64,000 nucleotides of DNA from Adineta ricciae. Its lineage: Eukaryota > Rotifera > Eurotatoria > Adinetida > Adinetidae. The DNA lies in assembly GCA_905250025.1 (NCBI GenBank), contig CAJNOJ010000294.1:51397-115396 (forward strand), given 5' to 3'. Shown in pieces: positions 20,037-64,000 of the stretch. Position numbers and translations under genes: made by a program. The notes under the pieces were generated by a model, which saw only the letters and a program-made list of their open reading frames with translations, ran no database searches and was not told the DNA's origin. Position 1 is the stretch's first letter, and each line of letters begins with the position of its first letter.

Positions 20037-21792
20037 TTAGCTAAAAATTATATTACATGTCTCTTCGTTTTCGATTTTCTCTTGAAGTTCATGCAACTGA
20101 ATGCTTTGTAGCATTTGCGGATGTTCAGTTAAAAACGTGTGGTACCACCATTGTGAATCAGGCAATACTCCTGGATGATTGTCTGTAACACGTACCATGA
20201 GACCTGTACAAACAATAGTGGAGTTGGGATCATTAAAATCCATGATGGGTTTGTCTTGCGCATCGATAAGCCATTCGATGACGGCATTATCGAAGTTAGG
20301 ATCGATGACTGTATCATAAGTTTTAATCGTTTCTTGGCCAATCTTTTTTATGTTATCCGGATGTACACGGCATTGTAAAACAAACTGAACATATTTACCA
20401 CCCTTGAAAAATGTACTCTCAGTCTCTGATTCGATTTTTTTAATCTCAGAGTACCTTGGATGAGCTGTATAGATAATTGATGGACTGGCGTATATACCGT
20501 CACCATGTGCTGTATCGATTGCTGGTTTCAAACCGCTGAGTAATATCGATAGGCCGTAGGCGAACCTTGTTCCATGGTAACATACAGACCATCCTTTAAA
20601 TTTTTCGTAAAATTTGTCAGCGACGTAGAACGAAAATCTTTGCCATCCGAGTGGACAGTAATAAGGATGAGGTCCTCGATCTAATTCATCAGGAGCAGAA
20701 CCAGTCCAGTATGAATGGTTTACATCATAGATACGATTAAATTCGGGATGCAATGTAATCTGCGAGCGAAACTTGATAGAATCATCATATGTTTCCATGT
20801 CACCCATAAACATGAACAAAACTTTTAATAAACCTAATGATTGAAGTGTTTTATCCGTCATTGAACTATAGAGGGCTTTAACTTCAATTTTTTTCTTTAC
20901 ACCATCCACTTGCTTGAAAATATCAAATACAACTTTAACACATCCACTTTGTATCTTGCTTATAGTGATATCATCAATGTTTAAGATATTGGCGATGTTG
21001 GTCAAAAAAGTTTCCGGATCAAAATCACTAGCGTCTTGATCGACGACGCATACCAGCGATGCAGTTAAGAGTTCAAAATCATCGTAAAATATCTTCTCGG
21101 AAACAGACACGAGCGGCTGTCCTAGAATATCGTAGTATTGCTTGCATTTATGATAATGAGCCTTTTCGTCGGCTGATATTGGCTCCGTGGACCATATGTT
21201 GGGTTTTTCAGGTGGTTGATCATTTGCATGTTCTGACCGCATATCTAAATACAATCAAACAATCGATATATTAATCGAATAGAATAATTATAATCAACTC
21301 GCGCTGGTCCCAATAGGAAATAACAGACTTTTACTATTTACCAGGAGAACTTGCAGATGGCACTGGCGTTGGTTCTGGTTGTGGCGACGGGGATGGTGTT
21401 CGAGGCGGTGAGATAGATGGCGACCGAGATGGTGCTCGAGGTATCGATGGTGATCGATGTGATAATGATAAAATAGGTGTAGGTGCCGGTCGTGGAGTTG
21501 TTGATGAGGGTGAAGGCACACGCAATGGTGGTGGTGGTGGAGGTGGTGATGGAGATGATTTTCTAGTTACCCTAACGTTAGAGTAATGCCTCATTATTTC
21601 GTCCTGCCGTTTCAATGTTAATTTGTCGATATGTGTTTCCAAATCTTCCATATAACTCTTGCGTGTTCTTTCACTCGTCAGACCACTTTTCTCTTGGCTA
21701 TACTTTATTGCGAGAAGACGTGCCCGTGAATCGTCGATATCGTCACTAAGTCGATAAATTTTCTTCAATCGTTTCTCTGCTGATTTGTCCAT
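20037..21792 (-). CDS. Coiled-coil, Pro/Ser-rich protein with C-terminal PARP-like domain (alpha copy)
   Basis: Exons 21342-21792 and 20037-21244 with a 97-bp GT-AG phase 1 intron give 552 aa. Residues 1-75 are charged and helical (RLKKIYRLSDDIDDSRARLL..), probably a coiled coil. Residues 78-150 are almost only Pro, Ser and Arg. The C-terminal 400 residues contain an alpha/beta module (LVCVVDQDASDFDPETFL..) and a region with GWSVCYHGTRFAYGLSILLSGLKPA, then HGDGIYASPSIIYTAHPRYSE and YVQFVLQCRV. HGT near beta-1 followed by a GIYxSPS/Y strand is reminiscent of the PARP-type NAD-binding fold, so ADP-ribosylation is possible but a catalytic Glu is not assured. No signal peptide. A second, truncated allele starts at 33586. 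Function uncertain. Confidence 0.68.
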
Positions 21793-22835
21793 AGTTCAAT
21801 CTTTCAACCTAAATTTCAACAGAAAAGTCTAACAATCCTATGAGCGATATACAGTATGTAAATTTTTAATAAAAGATCATGTTTCGCGAAAACAGCGAAC
21901 CACAGAAATGTCGAGTTGTGATAAAAGATTTTATTCGTTCTATTTATTTGACTTTTTATTATCAAGAATGTCGAGAAGAAGCATATCAACTATTATTTGC
22001 CTTTCGAAGAAGAAAGACAAAGCCGGTAACAATAAAGAAACATTTTATAGACGAGACATAGTGTTATTAACAGACACTTTCAATCGGTTACCATTGTAAG
22101 CTGATAAAGTTATTTGCAAAAACACTACATCGAACTATATGCATATATTGAAGATAAGAAACTACTTTCAAATTCACGTATAGTCGATTCCATGACAAGA
22201 GATTTATAAAAAGCAAACAAGGAAGTGAATAAAATTGTACTCTGCTATCGCTAAATTCTGTTCATATTTTCTCACTATGATGACAACGCTCTTGCAGATT
22301 TACAACTTCAAATCCTTCTTTGTGAATACCTACCGATCACTCGGCAAACCAAAATATTTGCTCATGAGGTTTGCCTCTTATCCCTAATGGTTTTTATCAA
22401 CTACGGAAAAATTTTGCATACACGTTATTTGGTGTGAGCTCAAAATACATAGATTTGTTCGAAACGTTGGAGAATGAGTTGTTTTAGCAAAACGATATAA
22501 ATTGCACAGTGAAAGTACCACATACAGGAAGATAATTCAATCTAATCATGCTGGATTATTGCACACTTTAAGACATATCCGTTCTTTAAGTTGAAAGATG
22601 TATGATTCTATCATCACGCATCATGAGATGTACAACCTAAACTTCCAACGTAGAAAAGTCTCAACTATGAATCACCCATCATATTTTCACATTTACTTCA
22701 ACTTATACGATGGCATATGCTTTATCAGTGATTTAATTACACATGAAACTCGATTGTGTATATTTATTTATTAAAGAAGACAGTAACAGATAATACATCG
22801 TTTTATCTCAGATCAAACACTCAAAATAAAGTATT
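21793..22835. other. Spacer between PARP-like and MARCH genes (alpha)
   Basis: Contains the PARP-like gene promoter side. A 63-codon frame at 21908-22099 is also open in the beta copy but its amino-acid changes are as frequent as in neutral sequence, so I do not call it a gene. Confidence 0.45.
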
Positions 22836-23609
22836 CTATGGTATTGCAGATGCTGCCATTGGCGTTCTATACTTTTCTAATTCTGATCTTCGTCCTTGAA
22901 AATCTTTAACAATATATTTGTTTGCTTCTTGTCTTAGCCATAACTTTCTTGTATGGTGTTCCATGATTTTCTGGAGAATGACAATACTATAAAACACCCC
23001 GACGAGCACTCCAATCATGGCGTAAATTACTACAAAGATTATAAGACAGGTAAGTAGTCCTTTCCCACTATTGAGACCAAAACCGTTTGGAATACAACGA
23101 TCAATACGACCAAGGGACCAGCAACTAATTATGAATGCAATGAAACCAATTAATACTAATAATAAAACAAACGAAGTTAAGTAGTACATCGCAAATTCAC
23201 TCATCCAACTTGGAAATTGATGCTTAATATCTCCACTATTCTTATCAATCAATTTCAATAAGAATGTTAAAGCAAGAATAATTAGTTGAGTTAACAAGAA
23301 AATTGATGTTATATCGCGAGTAACAAAGAAATAATACTTTAAACGTCTTATCTTTTCAGCTTTTAAGTCATTATCGACTGTTTCAATCACATATTCAAAT
23401 TTACAAATATCACAATAGTTAAATCCAATTCCACGGATATTTTCCGATCGCCAATTATCTAAACATGTCCGATGAACGAAGGCCGCACTGCCACTGCATA
23501 AACATGGGCTAATTAAACTATCAGTATTATCAGTATCTAAACATATTCGACATTGCTTGACTTGATCGTTCCGAAGAAATTGTTCGCGTTCAGATTCATT
23601 GTGCACCAT
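22836..23609 (-). CDS. MARCH-type RING-CH membrane E3 ubiquitin ligase (alpha copy)
   Basis: Single exon, 257 aa. The RING-CH zinc ligands follow the C4HC3 order: Cys20, Cys23, Cys36, Cys38, His46, Cys49, Cys66, Cys69 (CRICL, PCLCSG, FVHRTCLDNW, CDIC). Trp53 after HRTCLDN is the usual E2-contact residue. The remainder has about four hydrophobic helices (about 95-122, 138-165, 186-215) and a cytoplasmic basic tail. Members ubiquitinate membrane proteins and send them to lysosomes or ERAD; the target is unknown. Tandem AATAAA signals on the minus strand lie near 22760. The beta allele at 35826 conserves every zinc ligand. Confidence 0.9.
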   Translation of the reverse strand: MVHNESEREQFLRNDQVKQCRICLDTDNTDSLISPCLCSGSAAFVHRTCLDNWRSENIRGIGFNYCDICKFEYVIETVDNDLKAEKIRRLKYYFFVTRDITSIFLLTQLIILALTFLLKLIDKNSGDIKHQFPSWMSEFAMYYLTSFVLLLVLIGFIAFIISCWSLGRIDRCIPNGFGLNSGKGLLTCLIIFVVIYAMIGVLVGVFYSIVILQKIMEHHTRKLWLRQEANKYIVKDFQGRRSELEKYRTPMAASAIP

Positions 23610-24703
23610 TGAATCTTATTTCTCAATGTAGCTATGGAAAACAAGAATAGGACGACAGAAAAAAAAATTATGATGACGTGTCGTGTGTTGTGCAATAATG
23701 ACAAATGGCTGTATTTTGTGCACATATTCTTCCATTATTAGAAAGGAATGATGATTCATAACTACTGACATCATTTATATGAAAAAGAACCACATGGATT
23801 TGTTTTCTTTTCGATGAGGGTTTTCATCAGTCACTCTTACTCTCCATCTGCACAACTAAAAACTAAAGGCAAATAGTACTCAATATGGTAGGTATAGAAC
23901 TGAATGATCGATCATATACGATTAAGCAATAGTACTTGTAAAGAAAGGTCAGATATCTAACATATATCCTTCTTAAAAATAGCATCTCAAATGATGACTG
24001 ACATGAATTCCGAAACCATGCATGTTTTTGATGTATCACAATCATTATCCGATATTTGAAATCAATCGCCGTAATCAAGGTAGCATATAGTAAAAGTGTT
24101 GTATTGACACATTAAAACTGTCTACCTTTCATTTAAAAAATACGAAATGAACGCATATTTTCTGTGACTACTTGTACAATGCAAATGAACAAAAGCTAGA
24201 GTCTACTTCTCATCGAAAGCATATGAACAGAGTGGATTTTTTAATCTATCCCAATATAAGGACGACACCAATCGACCAAACTCCAAAGGTAGGTATCTTA
24301 TCTTAATAATCCTATAAAAACGCGTATTAAGAAACTGTGTCGGTAGTTAATACAATAAAGAGGATTGCAAATTTCTTTCGTACAATACGGAGTAGCCGTG
24401 ACAATTTGAAGAATACCAACTATTTTCAATATATCACTGTCGTTCATACATGAATCCCATTAGTGATTTATTTTTTGTCAATAAAATACTAACTGTATAA
24501 AAAGGACTCGCTTATCGATTTCGATAAATATTCTTTCATTCATCTTCATATATAACTTTTCGTCCGCTCTGTCTATTGTAACGATGGGGTCAAGTACATA
24601 AATGAAAAGTACGTTCACGAACATCTTTCGTTCCTTTCTCTTCTCGCTGTCTGTGCGTAAATATAAATACGACTGAACAAGGGCACATACAATCATAGCA
24701 ATT
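23610..24703. other. Divergent spacer of MARCH and UGT genes (alpha)
   Basis: Holds the promoters of both flanking genes. A TATA box (TATAAATA near 24662) stands about 40 bp before the UGT start. About 100 bp near 24287-24388 are absent from the beta copy. No gene seen. Confidence 0.5.
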
Positions 24704-26129
24704 ATGTTCGGCTCATCTATATTTATCACTCTGATTTGCGGTTTGCTATCAACAGCGAATGCTACTCACATTCTGGTTATCGCTCCACCGTTTTTAAGCC
24801 ATATGATTCGTACGTAGTTGTAGTTTACAAAGGTGAATTCTCGATTGGTATTTGTGTGTATCCATAGCTTCGTTAGAACTGGCAAAACAGTTATCATCTT
24901 ATTGTCATGTTACGTATCTTACATCAATAAATTCGATTAGTGAACTTGAACGCAAAGAATTCATTTCGCATTTGAACAGCAGCAAAACACTTGATATTGT
25001 CGGCTTAGTCGATGGCAACAATCATCTTCCGGGCTTAATGATCGAAGAATCTCAAATTAATTCGAATAACACTGCACAAGTACGTTTTGACCTATTCCGA
25101 ACCTAGCCTTTTCTAAATCGAAATTTTTAGATCGCTTTTGACGATCATCAAAGAATATTATTTAATGAGGTTTTAGTTCGGATGGGCCAAGCATTGCATC
25201 ATCTATTTCAAACAGATCTTCAATCATCTGTTCGTTTACCAATTGATATGATTATCGCTCGTTCATTTGTACCATTGTCGTTCTTGAATACATCCATACC
25301 GATTCATTTATTTCTGCCCAGTAATCTTCGCGGTGTAGTTAGTTACATGCGCAGGCAGCATACGGATAAAACTGGCCAATTTAAAGAAGCTTACGATTAC
25401 ATACGAGAAAATATTCATCAAGCAAATGGTTTTCTTTGTAATTCTTTAAAAGAGTTCGATGGCGAATACGTTGACGAATTTTATCAATCATCGGGAACCT
25501 TAGCACCTATTCGTTTCATTGGTCCGCTAGTTTTTGATAATAAACAAGCAACGATGACGTCGCAAACGCGAAATATCATTGATTGGCTTGATAAACAGTC
25601 AACTGGTTCTGTTATTTATATCGCTTTCGGTTCAATTGCGAATTTACCGGCAAATGCTATTGATAGTGTTGCTTGTGCACTGAAACATCATGCATTTATT
25701 TGGTCGTTAAAAACGAAATCAGCGCTTCCGCCATCATTACATAACCTTGATTCTGTTCATCAACTTATTGTTGATTGGGCGCCGCAGCGCGCGATATTAT
25801 CGCATAGTTCCGTGGCATTTTTCTTCTCACATGGCGGATGGAATTCTCTTTTAGAAAGCATGCTATATGGAAAAGCACTGCTGGTATGGCCTTTCTTTGC
25901 TGATCAATTTGATAATGCACTGCAAGTCGTCGATATGGGTGTCGGTCGTCAAGTTTCGTACAATCTTACAGATGATATTCAACATATGTTACTTAATGGT
26001 AGTTATGCGAAAAGAGCAAAGGATGTTCAGCAATTGGCCATTGACGCTCGAGAAAATACATCGAAGAAACAGATCCTTGATATCGTTCGACTTATTTCGA
26101 AGAATCAACAGGAACACAATGAACTTTAA
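24704..26129 (+). CDS. Soluble UDP-glycosyltransferase with signal peptide (GT1, PSPG-like; alpha copy)
   Basis: Exons 24704-24809, 24868-25079 and 25131-26129 (introns 58 and 51 bp, GT-AG) give 438 aa. Residues 1-20 are a signal peptide ending ANA. The N-terminal acceptor domain begins THILVIAPPFLSHMIPSLELAKQL, joined correctly over intron 1. The C-terminal donor domain has the UGT signature WAPQRAILSH at 322-331, HGGWNSLLES at 340-349 and FFADQFDNA near 361-369, including His and Gln contacts for UDP-sugar. Unlike animal UGTs there is no C-terminal membrane anchor, making it closer to plant and bacterial GT1 enzymes; it would be secreted or luminal. The acceptor is unknown. A TATA box is just upstream. 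Confidence 0.88.
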
Positions 26130-26299
26130 TTCGACTTCTGAGTTCAACTGGACAGTCAGAAAAAATTCAACAACTGTATTTTTTTGTATATTAGTTTCTT
26201 ACTGACTCATTGACACAGACAGATCACTTACCATTCTTTCTCTCTTTCACGGAACAACCTGCACATTTTGAAAGTTCCTCAATATCTAAGTAAATTAGA

Positions 26300-27014
26300 A
26301 AAATAATATCGACACCTTCTCTTGTCGATGCCGAACATTCTGCATAATGCACAGCACCTATTGCTCTAGTCAATTTGAAATCATACTTACGACGAGCCAT
26401 TTATTCATTCATTGTCTTATTTGCTAAGAAAATCAGCTTGTACTCGGTATTTTCAGCATCAATGGCATGTTTCATCAACGAGAATTGTAGGCACATGGGG
26501 ACATCAGTGAGCACATCCAAGTTTGTGTAGAAAGAAATTTACTCAAAACTGTCAATTGACTTCAACAATACTGTTGGGGTCATCGATGGCAAGACACATA
26601 ATAATGGAATTAACATCAAAATAAGAGAGCGGTCGTAATCAATCGAACTCTTCTGTTCCGACTGTATTGTATAGATTTATATCGCACTGGGAAAAACGAA
26701 AATTACTTGATTGAGTTTAAGCTGTTGTTTTTGCGTGAAAATCGAACTTTGCGATAGTCGGTTCTTCGCAGACTGTCATATTATTATCAGACCATAGTTG
26801 GCCAGCGACAACACGAACTAAAGCAGATTTATATATAACAGCAGCAAACGTAAACAACGATAAAATGAATAGAAAAATATTTTCTACCGCACTGATTATC
26901 ATCGACAATGAGAATTTTTCGGTTTAGCTTTGAAGTTGGTTCGTATCGTTTTTCAATACTCCAATAGAACATCATCATGTATGTAATGCACCGTTCTTTC
27001 TCTACTGCACTCAT
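26300..27014 (-). pseudogene. Rho-family small GTPase pseudogene (alpha copy)
   Basis: Minus-strand fragments follow a Rho GTPase from end to end: a degenerate P-loop (RKILIVDDNQCGRKYF in place of GDGxxGKT), a switch II region (EEFDRLRPLSY in beta), ILV-x-E where NKxD is expected, and a C-terminal VHY-ECSASTREG box. Frames are broken. In this copy the region matching the beta exon acceptor (CTTTCAG) is deleted, the Trp after CAH has become TGA, and an additional TAA interrupts the C-terminal part. Both copies share the frameshift at the NKxD site. It is not functional as a GTPase. Confidence 0.75.
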
Positions 27015-27366
27015 TGGATATTTAGTTGAGAGTCATGCAGTCCAATTTGTTCTATTCAGAGCTAAACATTGAATTCCTGTCTGATTATGGATACAAAGAA
27101 CATGTCAGTTCATTTGGTTTATGGAATAAGATAAACGGAATTTCATGTCAGTGGATTAGAACAGGATGAAGCACATTTCTTGCTGATAAAAATAAACATG
27201 AAAAACACGCAGATTAATTATTCGATTTTGGGAGTTAGAAAGCAAGATTTTAAATTGAAATGAACAACAAATACACTACAGTTGACAACGACAATGAATT
27301 CTTATGAAGTCACAAAATGACAAATAAAATAATCCGCTTCTCACACTACAATGTCATACCAGTGAC
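27015..27366. other. Spacer, nothing recognised (alpha)
   Basis: Short AT-rich spacer between the Rho pseudogene and the 3' end of the GPCR. Confidence 0.4.
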
Positions 27367-28335
27367 TTATTTGCAAGTAAAGATATTTTTTACTTCCTGC
27401 CGAAAGGTTTTTGAGACTATAAGATTGGTGTAAGCTTCGATACAAAAAGGTATCGATGTGACAGTGGCACTGAGAATAAGAACAAATCCTTCGATTCGAG
27501 ATTGCAAATATGTTTTCGTATAAAATTTCGTAACTTCTTGGTATATGAGAATAGCAGATTGAATTATATTGAATACAATGTAGGTCGTGATGCTCACCAG
27601 TAAAATTCGAATAAGTTGTCGATCTTTTGATTTCGGCTTAGTAACATTCCTGCTTGGTATTACTCTGGAGACTTGTGCAGCAACAGGATGAGTCACTCTC
27701 AATGTTGTTCCAACATTCTGTATTGTCCACAAAGCTAAAGTGATTAACATAGAAGGAATAAGAATGACTTTTGTGACCAGTGGATAATAACTCATCACTG
27801 ATAAATACAAATCGGAATAAAAAACACAAACAATGGAACCTGATGGGAATGTTTTCAATTCCATAAGAATCAATGCATGAGTGTGAACTATTAACCAGAA
27901 TATTGTCACAATCATGATACAAGTATAGGCACGACGAACAGTGCTTTTGCGTCGTGTTAAAGGATTACGTGATGTAATCAATACTCGATCAATAGAAGCC
28001 AATATTAAATAGCTTGGGGACAAGACATCGAAAACGTACAGCGTATAAGCACGGAAACGACAGAAAAATAAGTTGTATCTAGTTAAATCGATCGAATAGC
28101 CATATGTTAATGTCAAAGTTAAGTTTGACGTGTAGATTAAGAAAAGACTGGCAATGTTTGTACCTATGAGATAGATTGTACATGGATTTTTGCGTAAACT
28201 TCTTCTTGAAAAGACACACAAGCTGAGTATAGAACTGATAGTTCCTGTAATCATTAAAACGGGTCCGCCATATTGGTGTAAACTCTGTAGAATTGAGGAG
28301 AACAGTTTGATCAGGTTGTTATCCGAGGACATCAT
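27367..28335 (-). CDS. Rhodopsin-type GPCR (alpha copy)
   Basis: Single coding exon, 322 aa, seven hydrophobic helices. TM1 ILMITGTISSILSLCVF is followed by the family-typical RRSLRKNPCTIYLIGTNIASLF. TM3 starts with FCRFRAY and ends LASIDRVLITSRNP, an SIDR form of the DRY motif that keeps the Arg. TM7 has IPFCIEAYTNLIVSKTFRQEV. It belongs to the same broad bdelloid receptor family as 18914 but to another subfamily. A probable 5' UTR intron lies just upstream (GTAGGT to TTCACAG, about 28345-28402). Start: this allele has two adjacent ATGs, the beta allele one. Ligand unknown. Confidence 0.85.
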   Translation of the reverse strand: MMSSDNNLIKLFSSILQSLHQYGGPVLMITGTISSILSLCVFSRRSLRKNPCTIYLIGTNIASLFLIYTSNLTLTLTYGYSIDLTRYNLFFCRFRAYTLYVFDVLSPSYLILASIDRVLITSRNPLTRRKSTVRRAYTCIMIVTIFWLIVHTHALILMELKTFPSGSIVCVFYSDLYLSVMSYYPLVTKVILIPSMLITLALWTIQNVGTTLRVTHPVAAQVSRVIPSRNVTKPKSKDRQLIRILLVSITTYIVFNIIQSAILIYQEVTKFYTKTYLQSRIEGFVLILSATVTSIPFCIEAYTNLIVSKTFRQEVKNIFTCK

Positions 28336-29248
28336 TTTATATCTGTGAAAAAGAGAAGAAAGAATACATTTATATACTCTGGAACTTATGCGTACCTACC
28401 TTTCAACAGATTTCGCTAAAATAACGCCTGATTCGTCATCGCTGCTATGTGCCTGCAATCGTCTAATTAACTAATGAATTTGACGTGTAGAAAATAAAGT
28501 CGATTACAAAGTAATTGACGCGAAAATGTCCTTAAGTTTCAGTTTCTTACTGTACTGAACAATTACATACATTCATTACTTGAACGTGTAGGTCGTTGTT
28601 TATTTCTACGCCTGGTAGTAATACCACTAATTTTCTGTATTAGGAATCTGAATAGTTTTAGTAGATTTTACTGTTCTTTCTGAGGTTAATTGAAGTTAAA
28701 ATGTAGCACGTGACCTTGAAGATATTTTACTTTTATGTCAAATGATTATCAACTCATGTCCCCTGGATGGAAATAATGCCATACAGTATATACAATACAT
28801 CGACAGTGTATATAAATCTTTTAACATACACAATTATATATTGTTATAGTCTGTTAGAGTTGTCACCGATTGCATATAAATACATTGTGGAATGCATTTT
28901 GGAGGCACCCTAAAGATCAGATTTTGCAGAACGTGAAATTGTTTTTATTTCTTATAAAAACAAAAACATATTCTGTACGTATGTGAAATTTCGTGTTCTC
29001 TTGCACTATATCAATCTTGTGTTGAAAATATTTGACAATTAATCCTTCAAGCATTGTCAATGCCCTTACACATCACGTTTTCCGGTCTGCTGCCAACAGG
29101 AACTCCTGTAAAAAATAGTTTGTTCAAGATTAAGCATCTTCAAATGTACTCATATAAAGTTGGCAAGAGCTCCACCGACTATATGAGACTATATAATTAC
29201 GTTTGCTAAATATTAATTTATACTGTGTTTATGTAATCTGTCATAATC
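28336..29248. other. Spacer with allele-specific insertion (alpha)
   Basis: Upstream region of the GPCR. A segment of roughly 200 bp ending near 29250 has no counterpart in beta. No gene recognised. Confidence 0.45.
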
Positions 29249-29449
29249 TTATGTTAATTCAATGATCCACGCTGAGGAATCTTCTTGTTGAATAAAATCA
29301 ACTGAAAAAATTGTCCCGACAAAGAATAAAACTTGAAATATCAATAAACGGTCGGAATTTTCCGTCGACTTCCCGGAACAAACGAACGAGCGAGCGATCC
29401 GTTCGCTATGCGACATTGACATAAATATGTAGATTGGAATCGTTGGCAA
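29249..29449 (-). pseudogene. ADP-ribosyltransferase remnant, C-terminal (alpha copy)
   Basis: The frame ends with VLFFVGTIFSVDFIQQEDSSAWIIEL, the last strands of an R-S-E ADP-ribosyltransferase domain right after the catalytic E-x-E position. In alpha the segment holding that Glu is missing, and no catalytic Arg or Ser motif is found upstream. The beta copy at 42014 retains slightly more. A dead gene fragment. Confidence 0.65.
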
Positions 29450-30255
29450 CTATTTTTTGTTCAAAAATTGTCCTTGAAATTTACAAATAAAAGCGATGCT
29501 TCGTGTACGAAATGCTTTATACAGAGAGTTTTCCAATGTTTGATCAAAAAGGAGGTAAAAGATTGATACTATAAGGTTGTTAAAGCATTTTCATTTCAAT
29601 TGATTAACGATTGCTCAATGCGATTGGTAAATCAGTTGTGTGAGATAGAAGGATATTTTTACGTAGCCGACTGATTAATTACTTGACAGTTTCCAGTTTT
29701 GAGAATATGAATCGAAGAATGAATTTGAGAGAAAGTTTCAAAGGTCGTTAGAAAGTCATGATTTTGTATTTCATTCAATTTGCTCAATGGTTAATTGCAG
29801 ACCTTCATTGGAACTAGGCAACAAGTCTAATAAAATGAAAAGAACGATTTTTATTCTGCATCTCGTACATTTGCCTATTCTACATGACACTTTCTTATTG
29901 ATGTTTTGACTGACTTTTATTTTATCTTACTCAGACCGTAAATCTTCAAAGCTCCTGTCACAGTAATTCCGTGATAATTTCTGTCAAGAAAAGTGGGGCA
30001 AAACGTTTTCATTTATTGCTTCTCGAGAATTGCTCCGGACTGAGACAAAACGTACGCGTTAGCACTTGCATATCAAGAACAAAAAGAATGCTAATATGTC
30101 AGATGATAAGAACTACTAAAAATGGCAAATAGTATATTCTTGATATGGGAAAAAGCCTTGATGAGGGAAAAAAACCTTCTGAACTGATCTTCTATATAAA
30201 AAACACATATTTTTCTCGCAATTTATTCTTCATTTTCCCTACAGGTCTAATTAGA
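29450..30255. other. Spacer, several allele indels (alpha)
   Basis: Contains the upstream region of the DED gene. It lacks the 126 bp (an 11-bp repeat plus 115 bp) that beta carries at 42352-42477. No gene recognised. Confidence 0.4.
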
Positions 30256-30619
30256 ATGGACGGTAATTGTTTACGTGTTTTTCTCGCCAATCTTCAAGAT
30301 CGTCTCAGTAATGATGAACGAAAACGTCTGGCGTTCATTGTTGGTGACGGTAATTTTTCATCTGGCGGCACCCTCAATTTAGTGGACGCTCTTTCGTATC
30401 GAAGTACAATCAACAACAAGGATTTAAGATATCTAATTGATGGTTTGAAAGAACTTGGTTGTTCTGAAACAGCACGAATAGTAGAAGGTAATTTCTCTTT
30501 TGTTTTATTATGTTCGACACTTTTGTTTATATTTATAATCTTTAGATAATTTACCATTGATGATTCCATCAAGCCGAATGACATTAGAGGAACTTCTAGA
30601 TAACTGTGAAGAAGATTGA
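30256..30619 (+). CDS. DED-only small protein (alpha copy), two exons
   Basis: Exons 30256-30487 and 30546-30619 (58-bp GT-AG phase 1 intron) give 101 aa. Residues 5-78 resemble a death effector domain: LANLQDRLSNDERKRLAFIVGD, LNLVDALSY, DLRYLIDGLKELGCSETARIVE. The short second exon adds an acidic tail (MTLEELLDNCEED). Such single-domain DED proteins could act as adaptors or competitive inhibitors in caspase-8/FADD-like assemblies, as FLIP-type proteins do; the DED call rests on pattern similarity. A longer 5' frame from 30145 exists but the ATG at 30256 follows a CCCTACAG acceptor-like site and matches the paralogue at 1660. The beta allele encodes the same length. Confidence 0.65.
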
Positions 30620-33162: not shown

Positions 33163-33189
33163 TAAATATTCATGCAGGAATAAAATGCA

Positions 33190-46060: not shown

Positions 46061-46087
46061 TAAATATTCATGTAGAGATAAAATGCA

Positions 46088-50180: not shown

Positions 50181-50229
50181 TTCTTTCTGTGACAAACTAG
50201 AACTTCTTTTGTACATTTTTTTACAATAA

Positions 50230-50880: not shown

Positions 50881-51043
50881 TTTCTATGAGTTGAATATCA
50901 AATGGCTTGGTGAATATATTATTTTACACTACGGGTAAAAGTGGATAATAATAAAAAGAAAATCATATCTATGTACACTCTCAGAGTCCTTTTCCGATGG
51001 AAGTCATCAAAGCATGATAAAAGTAAATCGAATTGCGTTTGAA

Positions 51044-52189: not shown

Positions 52190-52410
52190 TACTTTCTTTG
52201 CACTGATCTATTTCAGAATACAGTTATAGAACATAATTTGTAAACAATACACGATGACTCAGAGATCCTATTTTGACACAATTCATCGTTGAAATACCAA
52301 TCAAACAAATGTCGCCTTCTTTTATGTAGATGTCACAAATTAATTTATCGACGATTACAGTACTATGTAAAAAATTTTCTGTTTATTCTATCAGAATGTG
52401 AATCTATCAA

Positions 52411-53493
52411 TTATTGTTTTATAATACTAAGGAAACAATGCACATAATCCATCGAATAATCCTTTGGTGCAACAATCACATCGTTCTCCAGGGCTTGATA
52501 GAAGCGATCAATGATAGTTTGACGTTCAGTTAAATTTCGTGTCAGATCTAATGCATTGAAAAAGGTACTTTCAGACCAAGAGCGTAAAGTTGGTATGAAA
52601 GCTTTAGCAAATACGTGTGCATCGCCATGCTCTCGAAATTGTGCTGCATACGGACATTTGGTAACACGTGTACTCACGTGCTCGAGTACGAGACCGGCGC
52701 GTCGCACTGAAGAGTTTTCATCGTCAAAAGGTGCTGTGAATTCATTTACAGTTCTGTAGTGCTGCTGAAACGTAGCGTTGTGATATTCCGACTCGGTTAT
52801 TTCGCCATCGTTCATCAGTTTTCGCCAGTGGTTAGTAAACCAATTGAACATATTTACACCATTACCTGTAGCACCCAGGTAACGGCCTTGCTCATCTATG
52901 CAGAAATTGGCGAGTACCAGCACACCGCCAGAGACAAGTTCTCGAGCTCGTGTCAGAAGAATCGTCTCCCAATCAGTAGCGGCTTGACGACGAAAATTTT
53001 CACGTTCTTCGAAACTTGCACCAGTAGCATGTACATGGTCAGCAATGAGTGACGGTTGTTTACTTAACCAATGCATAGCCGTAGCAGAGAATCCAAGTGA
53101 GAGCGTGTTCTCAGGAAAAATCTGTCGATAAAATGTTGTTCCACTTGCAAATGTATAAACATTTGGTTCATGACCTAATGGTGTAACGTGGTCGTCGTGA
53201 AAATGAAGACGACGAAACAATGCCGAGAAATCATTTTGTGGTAGATCTGTATAAGTAATTGTAATTGGTCGCGTCATGTTTGCTGCTCGAATTGATTTGA
53301 TTAAACAGCGCATCAGATCGAGTGATGTACCACCGTCAGCTGCACCGAAATCGGCGATTTCAAACGGTGCATTCGATTGAAACAAATTCATTCTTGAAAG
53401 AGCGTCAACAGCTAGATCACCTGCAGTATCAATAACGACTTTGGCACCAATTGTATTTTCACTATAGTAGCCCATACCACGCATTGCAATCAT
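52411..53493 (-). CDS. SABATH-type SAM-dependent carboxyl methyltransferase (beta)
   Basis: Single exon, 360 aa. Motifs of the SABATH (Methyltransf_7) family follow in order: N-terminal MGYYSENT, IADFGAADGGTSLDL (SAM binding), TYTDLPQNDFSALF (plant form NDLPGNDFN), TFYRQIFPENTLSLGFSATAMHWLSK (plant form SFYGRLFP..SSYSLHWLSQ), and a C-terminal cap. The family makes methyl esters of small carboxylic acids or N-methyl compounds, best known in plants and with bacterial relatives. It is not a usual animal family, so horizontal acquisition is likely. Substrate unknown. No introns or targeting peptide. The short 5' context (AAAATG) supports the ATG at 53491-53493. Confidence 0.85.
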   Translation of the reverse strand: MIAMRGMGYYSENTIGAKVVIDTAGDLAVDALSRMNLFQSNAPFEIADFGAADGGTSLDLMRCLIKSIRAANMTRPITITYTDLPQNDFSALFRRLHFHDDHVTPLGHEPNVYTFASGTTFYRQIFPENTLSLGFSATAMHWLSKQPSLIADHVHATGASFEERENFRRQAATDWETILLTRARELVSGGVLVLANFCIDEQGRYLGATGNGVNMFNWFTNHWRKLMNDGEITESEYHNATFQQHYRTVNEFTAPFDDENSSVRRAGLVLEHVSTRVTKCPYAAQFREHGDAHVFAKAFIPTLRSWSESTFFNALDLTRNLTERQTIIDRFYQALENDVIVAPKDYSMDYVHCFLSIIKQ

Positions 53494-53825
53494 TTTCGCG
53501 CTTGAATTTTTTATTTCTTTGAACGAAGCGACCTACAATATTCATTATATAAGCAAACTTAGACAAAGCTATAGACGAAATATTATCAAGTGATCGCGAA
53601 GTGAACTAGGAGAAAGGAAAAGACTGTTGTATATTCGGCGATCAGCGTGACATAATCACACATTAACAAAACATGTTAGAAGTTTAACTCACACTATTAA
53701 AAGCAATAAAAGATAAAGTGACAAAAAGAAACACGTGTCTCGAGCACTGATAACATGTCTTTCGTTTCTGCCTTAAATTTTTATATTTATGAATGCAGTG
53801 GAAGCAAAACGAGAAAAACAATATA
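53494..53825. other. Upstream region of methyltransferase (beta)
   Basis: 332-bp spacer; no motif recognised. Confidence 0.4.
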
Positions 53826-54397
53826 TCAATGACGTGTTAGTTTCTTTTTCATTCTGTTTAATATTTGTGCGAATGATGTCTGATCGAATTCTGCCTGATA
53901 AAATTTGGAAGGTGAGATAAACAGAATGTAATTTGTCATTTGAGATAAATAGGATAAGAAGTAAGTTACAAATAAATATATACTTTCATACACGATTGGT
54001 TTCGATTGACATTCGCACGTTTACATGTAACAAGGAGAATAAGGATAAGTACAGAAAAAAATGATCAAACACGGAATCATATAACCAAATATGGTTATCG
54101 TTTGACTATAAATGGACAAATGTTGATCATATTGTATAACACACCATGTACCTGTTTTTATGTATTTCGGATCAGGAACAACGTTGTAATAAATGACTTC
54201 ATAAATGATTTAGAAACACAGATACGCACGCACTTTCAATGGATGTGAAAGTAATTAACCAGAAACATAATCGCGTAAAACACGATAAACCATATGTAAT
54301 CGATTTACACAGAATTGTGTTAATTGTATAATTCAATATGAAACCTCTTGCACTTAACAGGAAATAAATGTTCTTTGAAAACAAAAATACAATTGAT
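53826..54397 (-). pseudogene. Rhodopsin-type GPCR remnant, 3' side (beta, cut by N)
   Basis: Holds a C-terminal TM7-like exon (MTNYILFISPSKFYQAEF..QILNRMKKKLTRH) and part of TM3-TM4 (..GLSCFTRLCFWLITF). TM6 is not found between them. Relative to gamma, an inserted base near 54190 breaks the frame after VFLNHL. The 5' part is beyond the N. Confidence 0.6.
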
Positions 54398-54398: not shown

Positions 54399-56393
54399 GG
54401 AGACATGAAATGGTAATTTAATCGAAACGACAAGCGATGTGTCAGTTGGATAACAGGAAAACAAAGACTTGTTACTGTCAGTTTCGTTGCGAATAGCAAA
54501 CATAATTCGTCCGCAATGTAACGAGGTGTTGATGAATTGAATATTCAAAGTGAATACTTGTGAATTGAGTAAATTGAAGACTGTTTCATGATCACCGGTT
54601 GGCATGTTTAAAAAGCGAAGACTAGTTTCGAATTTAGCATTGAGCAGATCTTTGGTTTGACACGTCGAATGTTTTGTTTCCATTGAATACTGAGTATGAA
54701 AAGTGGCACTAAATTGTACGAGAAATCCAATAAAGAATAAAGCACTGATGGAAATCAGACCACCGAACCAGAATTTGCCTTGTTCGATTAAATCGAAATG
54801 TTTGAACAAGTTCTTTGCAAATTGCTGCTTAATTCTAAATCGTTTCGAAAGGTTCATCGAACATATCAACATTGAAAGAAGCACTACAATCGAAAGAACT
54901 ATCGCAGTCATAATTATCGGAGATTTCCAACCACAATCCGTGCGAAACATATTATAGAATAAGATATCATCGAACACATCGATTTCCGCTGTTTCAGGAT
55001 AAGCAATTGATTGTGTAACATCGCTCATTAGTTCTTCTGTCGTGGCAAACTCCAGTGGACAATTTGATCTATTTTGACATTGCAGACAGCTAGGAATGAG
55101 ACGGCTATTATCTGCTTTACAAACACTGCATGGCCATATTCCAGCATCATTTTTATAGGTTCCGACTGGACAGGTTACACGATTGGGATAGAGAAAGTAG
55201 AGTCCATCAACATGACTCGTATAAATATCATCGTAAAAGAAAGATTCTACCGAATAGTATCCAGGATCAGATGGTAATAGAACTAAGATATGAGAAAGTT
55301 GATTGATTAGATACAATGTAGAAGGAGTCGTTTGTGTGGCAACCATGAACGTAGCAGTTGGTTTGAACTGATTGGCGTATTTCTGAAAAAAGTTAGGAAA
55401 AGTCATCGTGGCTGTTGCATTAGTTATAAACAGTGTCATGTCGTTGGAATCATAAATATAAACATTTGATCTTGCAGCTATTACTGAATCTCGTGGTAGA
55501 TCAGCCGTATCTAACACGGCAGCCCTTTGTCCGTTATTTAACCAAGCGACAGTCGTTCCGTAATTGTCTCTCATCACAATATCTTGCTGTTTAGTGCCTA
55601 GATGCTGCAACCGGAATGACTTCGTAGGCGTTTCATCGATAGTAAATAAATAAATCGAGTTTATAGTTGGAATTCCAAGCAGAATCTTCTCACCTGCTTG
55701 TTCACTTGCGCTAAGCGATAGGTCAAGATGCTCATAACTACACGCTAGTTCTGATTGCCATCGATCATGGAATTGAATTCGATATCCACTGAAATCAACT
55801 GACATTAAATAAACTGTTACTGTACATGAACCCGCGGATTTTTCATAACCAGCCATATACACAAAACGAGCGCTCGTATCAGCACATACCGGTGTAAAAT
55901 ATGTTGAATTTGGCCACACCATCTCATCGATCCAATGCATCCGTGTAAATAAATTACGAATAAAAATAAAAGATTCCGTCATCGCAATTGCATATTGACC
56001 ATACGGTTCAACCGATAATACAAGACGATTAATAGGATTAGCTTTTGATAGATTTCCAGACGTAATTGTATCCATTTCAACATGTTCATTATTAGTAACA
56101 GTAACCTTTGACATATACAATGCGGATCCGCTTTTCTCTATGGCAACAAAATAAAGTTGCGAGTGATTTTGTGCTTTGCCAATAGCAACAGTCGACGCAT
56201 TCAACAAACTTCTAGAAATGTAGAACACCTTTTTTCGATTGGCAGAAAACTGATATTGTATGGGAGAATTTGAATTTGATTTCAAAGAAACCAAAAGATG
56301 ATCATTCGCTGCTAGTATAACAGAAACTGGAGGAGATCTTTGTCCGTTGATAAATTGTACCATAAATACAAATAGAAATACAATACACTCCAT
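54399..56393 (-). CDS. Receptor-like three-TM protein, N-terminal 665 codons (gamma, cut by N)
   Basis: Same protein as 46088-48772, from signal peptide through the Cys-rich module and two membrane helices, stopping at the N (..LPFHVS). Together with the 131 codons at 33190-33584 it lacks about 98 residues of the 894. A few substitutions, such as VTMQKNG versus VAIEKSG; conserved cysteines kept. Confidence 0.85.
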
Positions 56394-57499
56394 TGAACAC
56401 TTCTATTCGATTGTGCATAATATAGATGTGACACGCGATAACATTCTATTTATTCTAAATATGACGATGACGTCCAAAATGGTGAAATACGAGATATCTT
56501 CTCTCTCAAATATTGTAAAAAAATACATCACAGATTTACATTAATCATTTTCAATCAAATACTTTCAATATCCTATTACATATTTCGATCATCCAGATAG
56601 ATTGTTGACCTTGGATGAAGTTAAAAATACAAAACATATGCGAGTGAGTGCGCTCAATAAGTGCTCAGTGTCTTTAGGAAACTATTCAACAGAACTAATG
56701 TGTTCTCGACACATATTCTCTTGGTTTGGTTTGACTTCTTGCGGCCTACGAAAGATTTCAATAAATTCTTCATTTTGAAAGTAAATCACTCCGATCAATC
56801 AATTAATTTTATCATTTCCTCCGATCGTTTGTTTGTGCTTGGTGAAAATGTTGCTTAATAAAGACTCAGCGATACTTAATTGATGTAAATGAAATTCCAT
56901 TAGTTGTATTTTTGTTGTCTGAAAAAGTGATGAATACACCCACAATCTTGAGACAAATGAACGGTCAATTGGTATAAATATATATAGAATCTTTTGATCA
57001 TTTGAATACTGCTGTCTTCAAACTGAATACTTGCGGAGATTTGTTCACGTACGAAATATACATACAATCAATTTTGAGTGGGATTTCTTTCATGTTTAAT
57101 GGTCCGCAAAAGCGCAAACCATAATCGCGTATATGTAGGAGGTTCATAGAATATCCTCGATCTACCTAACATTTTCTTAGTTTACCGTTGACAATAATCT
57201 AACCAAAGGTTTATTTTACATTCATATGTGATTAGACTGGTTGACTGGACTACGTTTGATAATCAAAAGCTAAAGACGCAGTGAATATGTGTCATCGATC
57301 ACATTTCTTTTCCTCTTCGTCGTAGTGGGACAAATGTATCCCCATATGAATACTTGCGTCATCAAATCCGTATATAAATATACGAATATGTACTGAACGA
57401 GCGGAATAGTTTATATTTCATTCTATATGGTAAGTGCACAATGTAACAAGTATTTCTCATAGTTTGTCAATATTCGCATATTTTAGTGTTAAACTGAAT
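56394..57499. other. Divergent spacer and leader of Cys-rich gene (gamma)
   Basis: Homologous to 48773-49874 with few changes in the first 200 bp, more further on. Leader intron begins GTAAGT near 57429. Confidence 0.45.
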
Positions 57500-57805
57500 A
57501 TGCGTTCTTGTTTGTTTACTGCGCTCTTTTTGATTCTGATTATCAAATATGTTCATTTGGAGGAAGCTAAACCACGCAAAGTTTGTCTGATGTGCTGTGG
57601 CAAACCTCCATGTTGCAACTGTTGTGGCTTGCCTGGCTGTACTAGTGGAACTGATCAAGCTAGTAGTACTCCTGCTCCGAGTACAGCATCAGCCGCATAT
57701 GAAAGAAATATTCGTGTTGCAATCAACACACCACGGCCATCTGGAGCATGCCTGACATGTTGTGGACCGCCGCCTTGTTGTAATACTTGTGGACTTGATA
57801 TCTAA
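57500..57805 (+). CDS. Small secreted Cys-rich protein (gamma copy)
   Basis: 101 aa, allele of 49875-50180. Both CLxCCGxPPCCNxCGL boxes are identical in cysteine positions (one Lys to Met change at x in the first). Linker changes (Thr to Ser, Val to Ala, NFP to NIR) show that only the boxes are constrained. Confidence 0.72.
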   Translation: MRSCLFTALFLILIIKYVHLEEAKPRKVCLMCCGKPPCCNCCGLPGCTSGTDQASSTPAPSTASAAYERNIRVAINTPRPSGACLTCCGPPPCCNTCGLDI

Positions 57806-57849
57806 TTCTTTCTGTGACAAACTCGAACTTCTTTTGTACATTTTTTTAC

Positions 57850-58636
57850 AATAAAAAAGCGTGACATCAAAGTCAGTACGATGAAAGAGAATAACAATAT
57901 TGTTAGTACAAACGTTTCCGACAATAATGGCCGGTCTATTATTATTCTTATTGAGATCAGCAGCAACTGCGACCATCGGTTCAATCATAAACCGTGTGCG
58001 TATGAGCCAGTTGAATATTTTACGGGTGTAGCAAAATATCCGTTACCTTGATTAAAAATTAGTCACAACAATATCTGATGTAGCATCATCATTTATTTCA
58101 TTCACTACTGTATTCCAAGGATCGTTCCCTGCTGGAAAAGCGCTTGTTTAAGCAATGCTCCATTGTCTACATTTAGAAAAACTGCAGAACATCGGTACTA
58201 TTATATACTATATGTGGTAAGTATGCTAGATTGTATTGTGCTGTAAGAAATCTAACAATTGTGTTACTATCTTCATTCGTGCCTTCAGTAAAACAGAAGT
58301 ATTCAATTACTTGTTATGACACTACTAGGTAAAGGTGGTTTGAGATACAAAAAAAAACGATGAATTAAGATCGATGCGCAGTACTGACTTCGGCAAGTAA
58401 TAAACAAACATTTGACAATGTTTTTCAACCGAATAACAATTCAACGCTGTATATAGTGAAAATGTAGTGGAAAAGAATGCTTTACAAACGTACACAAAAC
58501 ATGTATTCGTATAGATCGTAGTAATATTCGAAAATGAAACATATGATGCATCAGGAACATGTCTCATAGATACTGTAGTACAATCGACATTACCAATAGT
58601 TATTATCGAAATTACTAGAAGAACCGAATATGTCAT
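57850..58636 (-). pseudogene. PAN-like plus FG-GAP protein remnant (gamma)
   Basis: The 5' end is kept: a signal peptide (TYSVLLVISIITIGNVDC) and a PAN-like domain with NTCFVYVCKAFF, TALNCYSVEKHCQMFVYYLPKS, as seen at the start of many bdelloid FG-GAP proteins. After a stop the FG-GAP repeats follow in broken frames. About 80 bp of the FG-GAP part present in beta are deleted near 58182, whereas about 240 bp of the PAN part are absent from beta. So the two alleles have lost different pieces. Confidence 0.7.
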
Positions 58637-58832
58637 CGCTATGAGTTGAATCTCAAATGGTTTCGTGAATGTATTATTTGTAAAATACTTTTATAATGCA
58701 ATTAGAGTATGGTACACTACGGGTAAAAAATGGATAATATTAAAAAGAAAAGCATATCTATGTATACTCTCAGGGCCCTTTTTCGATGGAAGTAATGAAA
58801 GCATGATAAAACTAAATCGAATTGCGTTTGAA

Positions 58833-59978
58833 TTATTTAGAATTTTCGTCGGCAATTTTTAATATTAACTTTCCTTGTGCCATTCGATTTCGAGATCGTT
58901 CATAAGCAGAATACAATGCTTCGATTCCATCTTTTCTCCAATCGTATACTTTATCGATAATGGGTTTAACTTTCCCACTTTCGAAATAATTCAATCTTAA
59001 ATCATCGAGATTCTCCGGTGTTTGACTGTGAACATGCATGAAATATTTATGGCGTTCAGAACCAAAAACTGACCAGAATTTTCGGTTGAGCAGATTTCCA
59101 GCAGTTTGAACGATCCATGTTACTGAAAGAACAGGATTCGGATCGTCGCCTACAAATGTAATAAAATCTCCACCGCGTTTAAGAATGCGCTGCGCAGATA
59201 TCCAATTCTGTTGTCCTCCAACACAATCACAAACGATATCGTAATCATTTCCTTGCAATTCTTCGCCGAAATCTTTTTCTTTGTAATCGATGACTAAGAT
59301 CTGATTGTCCATATTGATCCATTCGGATTTATTTCGGATAATCTCATAACCTAACTTTTCAATGAGGAAAAGATTTCTTTGTGAACAAGTAAGAGCAACG
59401 AATGCTCCAACTGCTTTAGCTAATTGAATGGCAAACAGCCCTGTTGCTGAACCGCCGCCACAAATGAATAATTTTGTTCCTTTTCCAACTGGTGACGAAC
59501 ATCGTTGAAATAAAGCTTCATAACTTGTTTCACAAGCTAATGGAATTGCCGCAGCTTCTTCCATCGTTAAATTCGTTGGTTTAATAGCTAACATTGACTC
59601 TTCTGCTCGAGCATATTCTGCGTAACCTCCTCCGTTAGTCCCTAAATTCCCATAAACATGGTCACCTATGCGAACACGTCCGACAGCGGAACCAACATCG
59701 ACAACAACGCCAGCTACGTCACCACCAGGAATATGAGGAAATGAATATCGAATAGCAAACGATACGTCGCCGTATAGCAGTTTACAATCAGCAGGGTTAA
59801 TTGATGCAGCATAAACACGAATAAGAACTTGCTTTGAAGTTAATTCTCGAGGAACGGAAACATTGTCGTCAAGTTGTAAGACATCACGAACATTTCCATA
59901 GTTTATCTGCTGAGCTGCTCGCATAACATATGGAATTTCATTATTTGAAGTTGTAACGTTATCTTCCGTCATCGACAA
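58833..59978 (-). CDS. MDR-family NADPH-dependent quinone/enone reductase (gamma)
   Basis: 381 aa, allele of 51044-52189 with about ten substitutions; GGDVAGVVVDVG and GGGSATGLFAIQLAK unchanged. Both alleles look functional. Confidence 0.88.
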   Translation of the reverse strand: MSMTEDNVTTSNNEIPYVMRAAQQINYGNVRDVLQLDDNVSVPRELTSKQVLIRVYAASINPADCKLLYGDVSFAIRYSFPHIPGGDVAGVVVDVGSAVGRVRIGDHVYGNLGTNGGGYAEYARAEESMLAIKPTNLTMEEAAAIPLACETSYEALFQRCSSPVGKGTKLFICGGGSATGLFAIQLAKAVGAFVALTCSQRNLFLIEKLGYEIIRNKSEWINMDNQILVIDYKEKDFGEELQGNDYDIVCDCVGGQQNWISAQRILKRGGDFITFVGDDPNPVLSVTWIVQTAGNLLNRKFWSVFGSERHKYFMHVHSQTPENLDDLRLNYFESGKVKPIIDKVYDWRKDGIEALYSAYERSRNRMAQGKLILKIADENSK

Positions 59979-60197
59979 TGCTTTCTTTGCACTGATCTAG
60001 TTCAGAATACAGTTAGAACATAATTTGTACACATACACGATGACTCAGAGATCCTGTTTTGACACAATTCATCATTGAAATACCAATCAAACAAATGTCG
60101 CTTTCTTTTATGTAGATGTCACAAATTAATTTATCGACGATTACAGTACTATGTAAAAAACTTCTCTGTTTATTCAACTAGAATGTGAATCTATCAG

Positions 60198-61280
60198 TTA
60201 TTGTTTTACAATACTAAGGAAACAATGCACATAGTCCATCGAATAATCCTTTGGTGCAACAATCACATCGTTCTCTATGGCTTGATAGAAGCGATCAATG
60301 ATAGTTTGACGTTCAGTTGAATTTCGTGTAAGATCTAATGCATTGAAAAAAGTGCTTTCAGACCAAGAGCGTAAAGTTGGTATGAAAGCTCTAGCAAATA
60401 CGTGTGCGTCGCCATGCTCTCGAAATTGTGCTGCATACGGGCATTTGGTAACACGTGTACTCACGTGCTTGAGTACGAGACCGGCGCGTCGCACTGAAGA
60501 GTTTTCATCGTCGAAAGGTGCTGTGAATTCATTTACAGTTCTGTAGTACTGCTGAAACGTAGCGTTGTGATATTCCGACTCGGTTATTTCGCCATCGCTC
60601 ATCAGTTTTCGCCAGTGGTTAGTAAACCAATCGAACATATTTACACCATTACCTGTAGCACCAAGGTAATGACCTTGATCATCTATACAGAAATTGGCGA
60701 GTACCAGCACACCGCCAGAGACAAGTTCTCGAGCTCGTGTCAGAAGAATCGTCTCCCAATCAGTAGCGGCTTGACGACGAAAATGTTCACGTTCTTCGGA
60801 ACTTGCACCAGTAGCATGTACATGGTCAGCAATGAGTGACGGCCGTTTACTTAACCAATGCATAGCCGTAGCAGAGAATCCAAGTGAGAGCGTATTCTCA
60901 GGAAAAATCTGTCGATAAAATGTTGTTCCACTTGCAAATGTATAAACGTTTGGTTCATGGCCTAATGGTGTAACGTGATCGTCGTGAAAATGAAGACGAC
61001 GAAATAATGCCGAGAAATCATTCTGTGGTAGATCTGTATAAGTAATTGTAATTGGTCGCGCCACGTTTGCTGCTCGAACTGATTCGATTAAACATCGCAT
61101 CAGATCGAGTGATGTACCACCATCGGCTGCACCGAAATCGGCGATTTCAAATGATGCATTCGATTGGAACAAATTCATTCTTGAAAGAGCATCAACAACT
61201 AGAACACCTGCAGTATCAATAACAACTTTAGCACCAATTGTATTTTCACTATAATAACCCATACCACGCATTGCAATCAT
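60198..61280 (-). CDS. SABATH-type carboxyl methyltransferase (gamma)
   Basis: 360 aa, allele of 52411-53493. SAM motif IADFGAADGGTSLDL, TDLPQNDFSALF, TFYRQIFP and SATAMHWLSK are identical. Substitutions such as DLAVDAL to VLVVDAL and NWF to DWF lie outside motifs. 219 bp upstream of the reductase gene. Confidence 0.85.
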   Translation of the reverse strand: MIAMRGMGYYSENTIGAKVVIDTAGVLVVDALSRMNLFQSNASFEIADFGAADGGTSLDLMRCLIESVRAANVARPITITYTDLPQNDFSALFRRLHFHDDHVTPLGHEPNVYTFASGTTFYRQIFPENTLSLGFSATAMHWLSKRPSLIADHVHATGASSEEREHFRRQAATDWETILLTRARELVSGGVLVLANFCIDDQGHYLGATGNGVNMFDWFTNHWRKLMSDGEITESEYHNATFQQYYRTVNEFTAPFDDENSSVRRAGLVLKHVSTRVTKCPYAAQFREHGDAHVFARAFIPTLRSWSESTFFNALDLTRNSTERQTIIDRFYQAIENDVIVAPKDYSMDYVHCFLSIVKQ

Positions 61281-61603
61281 CTTTGTACTTGAACTTTTGA
61301 TTTCTTTGAACGAAGCGATCTACAATATTCTTTATGTAGGAAAACTTAGACAAAGCGATGGAGGAAATATTATCGAGTGATCGTGAAGTGAACTAGGAGA
61401 AAGGAAAAGACTGTTGTATATTCGACGATCAGCGTGACATAATTACACGTTAACAAAACATGCTAGAAGTTTAACTCACACTGTTAAAAACAATAAAAGA
61501 TAAAGTGACAAAAAGAAACACGTGTCTCGAGCATTGATAACTTGTCTTTCGTTTCTGCCTTAAATTTTTATATTTATGAGTGAAGTGGAAGAAAAACAAT
61601 ATA
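61281..61603. other. Upstream region of methyltransferase (gamma)
   Basis: Homologous to 53494-53825; nothing recognised. Confidence 0.4.
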
Positions 61604-62232
61604 TCAATGACGTGTTAATTTCTTTTTCATTCTGTTTAATATTTGTGCGAATGATGTCTGATCGAAGTGTGCCTGGTAAGACTTCGAAGGTGAGATAAGC
61701 AGAATGTAATTTGCCATTTGACGTAAGTAGGACAAGAACTAGGATGCTATCATTAAATAACATTGCCATGGAACTTCTAAGAATCGTGTAGACATTTGCA
61801 CGTTTACATGTAACAACGAGAATAAGAATAAGCACAGAAAAAAATGATCAAACACGGAATCATATAACCAAATATGGTTATCGTTTGACTATAAATGGAC
61901 AAATGTTGATCATATTGTATAACACACCATATACCTGTTTTTGTGTATTTCGGATCAGGAACAACGTTGTAACAATGACTCCATAAATGATTTAGAAACA
62001 CAGTTACGCACGCACTTACAATGGATGTGAAAGTAATCAACCAGAAACATAATCGTGTAAAACACGATAAACCATATGTAATCGATTTACACAGAATTGT
62101 GTTAATTGTATAATTCAATATGAAACCTCTTGCACTTAACAGGAAATAAATGTTCTTTGAAAACAAAAATACAATTGATATTTGACTTGTTACGCTATTG
62201 ATGAACAAATAGTAGCCAACACCAACTAAAAT
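61604..62232 (-). pseudogene. Rhodopsin-type GPCR remnant (gamma)
   Basis: An exon beginning after a TTTTCAG acceptor (62233-62234) encodes TM2 to TM5: YYLFINSVTSQISIVFLF, CKSITYGLSCFTRLCFWLITF, HCYNVVPDPKYTKTGIWC, IFGYMIPCLIIFFCAYSYSR. A later frame to 61604 gives the TM7 end (MANYILLISPSKSYQAHF..ILNRMKKKLTRH). TM6 is missing between them and no exon with TM1 is recognised, so the receptor is incomplete, though this allele lacks the extra frameshift of beta. Confidence 0.6.
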
Positions 62233-63957: not shown

Positions 63958-64000
63958 GGTCAACAAAAAATAGCAAAATGGTGCGTATTCTATTCTCTTC

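Follow-up and report, generated by a model that had tools for sequence, protein, structure and literature searches.

A scaffold of the Adineta ricciae assembly in which two haplotypes of one locus are probably interleaved

The window analyzed here comprises the last 64,000 bp (C294:51397-115396) of C294, a 115,396-bp scaffold (contig CAJNOJ010000294.1, assembly GCA_905250025.1) of the bdelloid rotifer Adineta ricciae. It has a GC content of 35.7% and is characterized by long stretches that occur twice, together with their genes; these are considered here as the two haplotypes of a single diploid locus, probably set one after the other by the assembly. Three Ns, all single, are found in the window, at 5066, 33585, and 54398. 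The scaffold as a whole possesses seven single-N seams (9196, 13868, 17714, 47701, 56462, 84981, and 105794 in scaffold coordinates), and C294:1-3032 reads as a run of Ns. Its contigs are designated c1 to c8 in order, with alpha for the tail of c6, beta for c7, and gamma for c8. In the following list, given in window coordinates unless marked C294, the terms allelic, H1, and H2 express the proposed assignment to two haplotypes.

1-5065, plus strand: tail of contig c5 (C294:47702-56461), haplotype H2; the whole of c5 is allelic to c4 (C294:21981-30248), with 7.3% mismatches
5066: single-N seam c5/c6, an overlap left unmerged, where the last 194 bp of c5 equal the first 194 bp of c6 exactly (202-bp match)
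5067-33584, plus strand: contig c6, haplotype H2; head allelic to c4 as far as 20578, tail (alpha, 20660-33584) allelic to beta
20579-20659, plus strand: 81 bp present in alpha only, separating c4 from beta in H1, inside the 405-codon frame at 20040-21254
33585: single-N seam alpha/beta
33586-54397, plus strand: contig c7 (beta), haplotype H1; it begins with 121 bp that equal alpha 20660-20780
46091-48781, minus strand: stop-to-stop open frame of 897 codons, whole in beta; in H2 split over the end of alpha and the start of gamma
46483-46777, plus strand: 295 bp present in beta only, inside a probably near-homozygous tract
52414-53532 and 60201-61319, minus strand: SABATH-type methyltransferase (Methyltransf_7)
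54398: single-N seam beta/gamma
54399-64000, plus strand: contig c8 (gamma), haplotype H2; head allelic to beta as far as 62179
62180-64000, plus strand: dispersed repeat, directly past the end of the match to beta

The original prediction, made from the letters of the window, was that 33586-46482 repeats 20660-33584 and that 46778-54397 repeats 54399-62179. Both pairs align from end to end: the first over 12,343 sites with 905 mismatches (7.3%; 92.7% identity) and 60 indels, the second over 7,482 sites with 375 mismatches (5.0%; 95.0% identity) and 17 indels. As predicted, the copies meet at the single Ns at 33585 and 54398, each of which cuts a gene, and the stretch of beta that is covered by neither alpha nor gamma measures exactly 295 bp (46483-46777). 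A perfect tandem duplication also yields head-to-tail copies that meet at a junction, and a 2018 study of A. ricciae reported two cases in which homologous blocks follow one another in tandem on a scaffold (PMC5916493). Real duplications of segments within a chromosome (of 12.9 kb, of about 7.7 kb, and further ones upstream) would, however, require their junctions to coincide with assembly breaks, both window seams being single Ns within genes; taken with the evidence given below, we regard them as very improbable.

The alignments are not uniform. Between window 29000-30000 and 42000-42950 alpha and beta align poorly (68-88%, with many gaps), the flanks being better conserved; this may be a fast-diverging intergenic region or the site of different insertions. 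The longest identical tract shared by beta and gamma is 300 bp (48672-48971 with 56293-56592), followed by tracts of 200, 182, and 165 bp, where a constant divergence of 5% would lead one to expect a longest tract of about 118 bp. These long tracts hint at gene conversion or strong constraint.

Examination of the whole scaffold reveals that the pattern extends well upstream of the window. The tail of c3 (C294:15206-17713) matches the head of c4 (C294:17715-20229); the tail of c4 (C294:21981-47700) matches c5 plus the head of c6 (C294:47702-71974); the tail of c6 (C294:72056-84980) matches the head of beta; and the tail of beta matches the head of gamma. From C294:13869 on, the contigs thus fall into two haplotypes, H1 consisting of c4 and beta, and H2 of c3, c5, c6 (with alpha), and gamma. 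All six (c3-c8) have one orientation and are ordered by their start position along the locus, with c4 and beta spaced 81 bp apart in H1, and with 1,751 bp (c3/c5), an overlap of 194 bp (c5/c6), and 295 bp (c6/c8) as the corresponding spacings in H2. In this manner 101,528 bp of scaffold represent approximately 54,037 bp of locus, and 2,928 of 45,511 aligned sites differ (6.43%). Dovetail alignments running to the contig ends are found at four of the seven single-N seams (17714, 47701, 84981, and 105794), and a fifth (56462) is the exact unmerged overlap. The first two contigs share only a 334-bp match between their heads, and both stand outside the H1/H2 scheme. The original prediction had beta as an allelic contig misplaced between alpha and gamma; the misplacement is supported, but beta is no lone insert, the scaffold being interleaved from C294:13869 on.

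Evidence for this arrangement comes also from genes that are split between contigs which are not adjacent. The 897-codon frame, whole in beta, is divided in H2, where gamma carries the first 668 codons (54399-56402) and the end of alpha carries 130 whole C-terminal codons; the approximately 98-99 codons absent from both correspond to the 295 bp. This division had been foreseen, as had its unlikeness to independent tandem duplications, and a second case in the wider scaffold strengthens the argument. The 405-codon frame on the minus strand at 20040-21254 is whole in alpha, whereas the head of beta bears its first 198 codons and the tail of c4 its last 179 whole codons, the remaining 28 lying wholly or partly within the 81 bp. 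The complementarity is therefore seen twice: alpha and gamma together miss 295 bp of beta, and c4 and beta together miss 81 bp of alpha. True tandem duplications would have breakpoints independent of one another; they give no reason to expect the ends of non-adjacent contigs at distances of 81 bp and 295 bp within the same genes.

The 295 bp had been described as a gap of 0.3 kb in the other haplotype. They are indeed covered by beta only, and a search with window 46300-46900 revealed no second match to them; rather than a gap, this is probably a near-homozygous stretch that was written once. The last 221 bp of alpha contain a single mismatch to beta and the first 200 bp of gamma contain none; together with the 295 bp between them, they most likely form one near-homozygous tract of about 716 bp. 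If the uncovered stretches are homozygous they sit in tracts longer than 121 bp, namely 40 + 81 + 121 bp in the one case and 53 + 295 + 200 bp in the other, the latter extending to about 716 bp when a single mismatch is tolerated. By comparison, no second match above 77% was found for the 1,751-bp stretch, of which 1,500 bp were probed; the high-scoring matches (67-82%) cover short pieces.

A further characteristic of the contigs is the length of identity at their starts. Thirty-six contig ends were examined in C294 and in the sampled parts of scaffolds C243 and C38, ends cut by the sampling being excluded, and for 20 of these the same piece contains a further site that matches exactly over 20 bases. 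Exactly 121 identical bp are found at four of the 20 (the start of beta, C294:3033, C294:47702, and C38:143861), a length that a given end would show with a probability of about 2 in 100,000 at a constant divergence of 6.4%. Beta, for instance, agrees with alpha over its first 121 bp and departs from it at the following base, while the run at its end is 123. Since exactly k identical bases are what a contig shows when it starts from the last k-mer common to two haplotypes, these four starts look like graph forks of an assembly with k = 121 and not like duplication junctions; tandem duplication does not predict them. The maximum-haplotig (maxhap) assemblies published in 2021 were made using SPAdes with a final k of 121 (PMC7943196); for the reference assemblies the text of that paper gives SPAdes default. 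One constant overlap length at all matched ends was considered and rejected, as lengths of 53, 102, 123, 147, 161, 170, 194-196, 200, and others also occur, so that the 121-bp signal rests on four starts.

The number of copies was assessed with probes of 1.5-2 kb against the genome (130.46 Mb, 1,033 contigs). Each of three probes found itself and one further copy in C294: window 37500-39000 at 94% with no other match, 51500-53000 at 96% with other matches at 68-71%, and 18660-20659 at 95% with other matches at 65-74%. No allelic third copy was thus found for these three probes across the genome; a single partner per probe is not what tandem duplication predicts. As a yardstick, a probe from C300 has one partner, which lies on another scaffold (C717), at 93%; a probe from C60 has no partner above 75%. 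The mismatches per overlap in C294 (5.0-8.0%) compare well with this 93% identity on separate scaffolds, and in this respect the earlier view that the divergence suits allele pairs is borne out, albeit by a single yardstick. The published divergence of homologous coding sequences in A. ricciae has a median of 4.55% (PMC5916493).

Bdelloids are degenerate tetraploids, for which four related copies are expected (PMC5916493), and the copies might on that account be ohnologues of the ancient tetraploidy brought together by mis-scaffolding. Ohnologues are much more diverged, with a median of 24.9% in A. vaga (PMC5916493), than the 6.4% with collinearity seen here, and it is the 65-75% matches on other scaffolds that look like ohnologues or paralogues; the probability of this explanation is negligible. 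It is equally hard to credit that the haplotypes came from different animals of two lineages in the sample. An allele and a strain variant are indistinguishable from sequence alone, but if the assembly is ARIC003 the DNA was that of about 200 animals with a single individual as their common ancestor (PMC7943196), and a divergence with the median cited above has been published for homologous sequences within A. ricciae (PMC5916493).

A comparison of eight pairs of open frames gave pooled synonymous (Ks) and nonsynonymous (Ka) divergences of 0.127 and 0.033, respectively, and a Ka/Ks of 0.26, indicating purifying constraint. This would be expected of alleles, but of many young paralogues too. 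The families that had been named as duplicated were largely recovered: Pfam matches are found in both copies for RINGv (MARCH-like), two UDP-glycosyltransferases, a zinc-dehydrogenase (MDR), and the SABATH-type methyltransferase. The duplicated GPCR is less certain, a 7tm_1 match being found in the alpha copy only, where it is weak and under the Pfam cut-off.

To these findings may be added a small and chosen sample of other scaffolds (20 kb of C38, 30 kb of C243, and parts of C60, C300, C1, and C226). C38 provides a clean case, a contig tail (138456-142043) being matched at 95% by the next three contigs (142045-145804). In C243, the stretch 35649-37200 matches 34095-35647 at 96%, a single N standing between the two, and a longer collinear pair lies on two contigs (13672-16899 plus 18639-21144 with 26036-31856; 94-95%). 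No long allelic overlap was found in C300:1-10000 or C1:1-10000. It seems that such zipping is not confined to C294, allelic overlaps being present in two other sampled scaffolds. Of 20 N runs in the sampled sequence 17 are single, the other three measuring 17, 19 (truncated at the locus edge), and 75; runs of 3,032 and 3,523 and two of 200 are excluded from this count. Scaffolds C50 and C295 likewise begin with Ns, over 200 bp each.

The predominance of single Ns fits a scaffolder that estimates gap sizes and writes one N where the estimate is negative and the contigs have not been merged. A mechanism may be envisaged in which a de Bruijn assembler would keep haplotypes that have diverged by about 6% apart and would break contigs at common tracts longer than k; a scaffolder would then place the contigs of both haplotypes along one guide by their start positions, and where the calculated gaps were negative a single N would come to stand between them. 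The nature of the assembler and of the scaffolder, the value of k, the guide, and the homozygosity of the uncovered stretches are our inferences. SSPACE-LongRead, which was used for the assembly Ar2018 (PMC5916493), sorts contigs by their position on long reads and merges them at a negative gap if an overlap is found; it is a candidate scaffolder for C294.

C294 is, we conclude, a zipper in which the two haplotypes of a single diploid Adineta locus alternate, and its repeats are an assembly error and not gene duplications; judged on the assembled sequence, we put the probability of this at about 95%. What marks a false haplotypic duplication is found here: copies on one scaffold separated by gaps, dovetail ends, allele-like divergence, and no further allelic copy. 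Several observations weigh against it. The divergences of alpha/beta and beta/gamma (7.3% and 5.0%) are unequal and both exceed the published coding median of 4.55%. According to its description, SSPACE-LongRead discards any contig whose overlap with a better one on a read is 200 bp or more, and overlaps of 13 kb fit badly with this. At 16 of the 20 matched ends the identity is not exactly 121 bp (one is 123), and the ends of alpha (53), c4 (40), and c3 (41) and the starts of c4 (20) and gamma (200) need trimming, path extension, or some other cause; moreover, the published k of 121 belongs to the maxhap assemblies, whereas the present one may be a reference assembly, and the tie between the two is presumed. 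In C294 itself seams 9196 and 13868 are without end-to-end overlap. Elsewhere, the long pair of C243 lacks 16900-18638 and breaks the start order, the second contig extending further left; C60:1-50000 is without allelic overlap, and none was found at the seams C1:1920, C38:147216, and C243:22062 or in C226.

The genome of A. vaga was once inferred to be indivisible into two haploid sets. If the interleaved order of C294 were real, with homologous segments in physical tandem on one chromosome, the genome of A. ricciae would be likewise indivisible; to this we attach only the slightest credence.

In the preferred reading, two interleaved haplotypes, C294 represents an ordinary and known kind of error at an unusual extent, favored by high heterozygosity. 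Kelley and Salzberg (2010; PMC2864568) described duplicated overlapping contigs as a kind of false segmental duplication. As there, contigs of one haplotype each reach past each other at opposite ends and lie side by side, with alignments running to the contig ends; in contrast, C294 is a chain of six contigs that switches haplotype over about 100 kb, with overlaps that differ by 5-8%, where one example in that paper is 98.9% identical. Heterotype false duplications on one scaffold, described in Genome Biol. in 2022 (PMC9516828), likewise place allelic copies on one scaffold with an assembly gap between them and produce false gene gains. They concern vertebrates, whereas the present case concerns a rotifer and is known from the assembled sequence. 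A further likeness is with A. ricciae scaffolds ARIC00305 and ARIC00659, in which homologous blocks appear as tandem repeats (PMC5916493), although these belong to a different assembly (Ar2018). Our guess is that they contain the same kind of error. In a literature search no previous account of A. ricciae scaffolds with interleaved haplotypes came to light, which is no proof that none exists.

The dispersed repeat at 62180-64000 begins where the homology to beta stops. Genome matches number 43 for window 62180-63000 and 25 for 63000-64000, each count including the window itself, and the family reaches identities of 93-94% in dozens of places; one match starts from 62197 and most others from about 62528 or later. 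This repeat may be the cause of the end of beta at this point, or may be an insertion in one haplotype only. Among the best 120 of 2,669 matches to the SABATH-type methyltransferase, the closest named relatives are those of A. steineri (78%) and A. vaga (79% over 80% of the query); outside Adineta the named relatives are Alphaproteobacteria (Phreatobacter, Mesorhizobium, and others) at approximately 57-60%, and some unnamed matches reach 71-77%. In a comparison that left out plants, this suggests a bacterial source for the gene. Upstream, at window 3557-4627 on the plus strand, lies the frame of a protein that resembles ADP-ribosyltransferases and bears a WWE domain (Pfam matches to ART, ADPrib_exo_Tox, and WWE).

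Where it is present, exact-k identity at contig starts offers a cheap test, requiring no reads, to tell duplication junctions and assembly forks apart. The apparent tandem copies of UDP-glycosyltransferase, RINGv, dehydrogenase, GPCR-like, and SABATH-type genes in C294 should not be read as expansions. The overlaps in two other sampled scaffolds suggest that haplotype purging should precede gene-family counts, scans for tandem duplications, and claims of linked homologues drawn from the present assembly.

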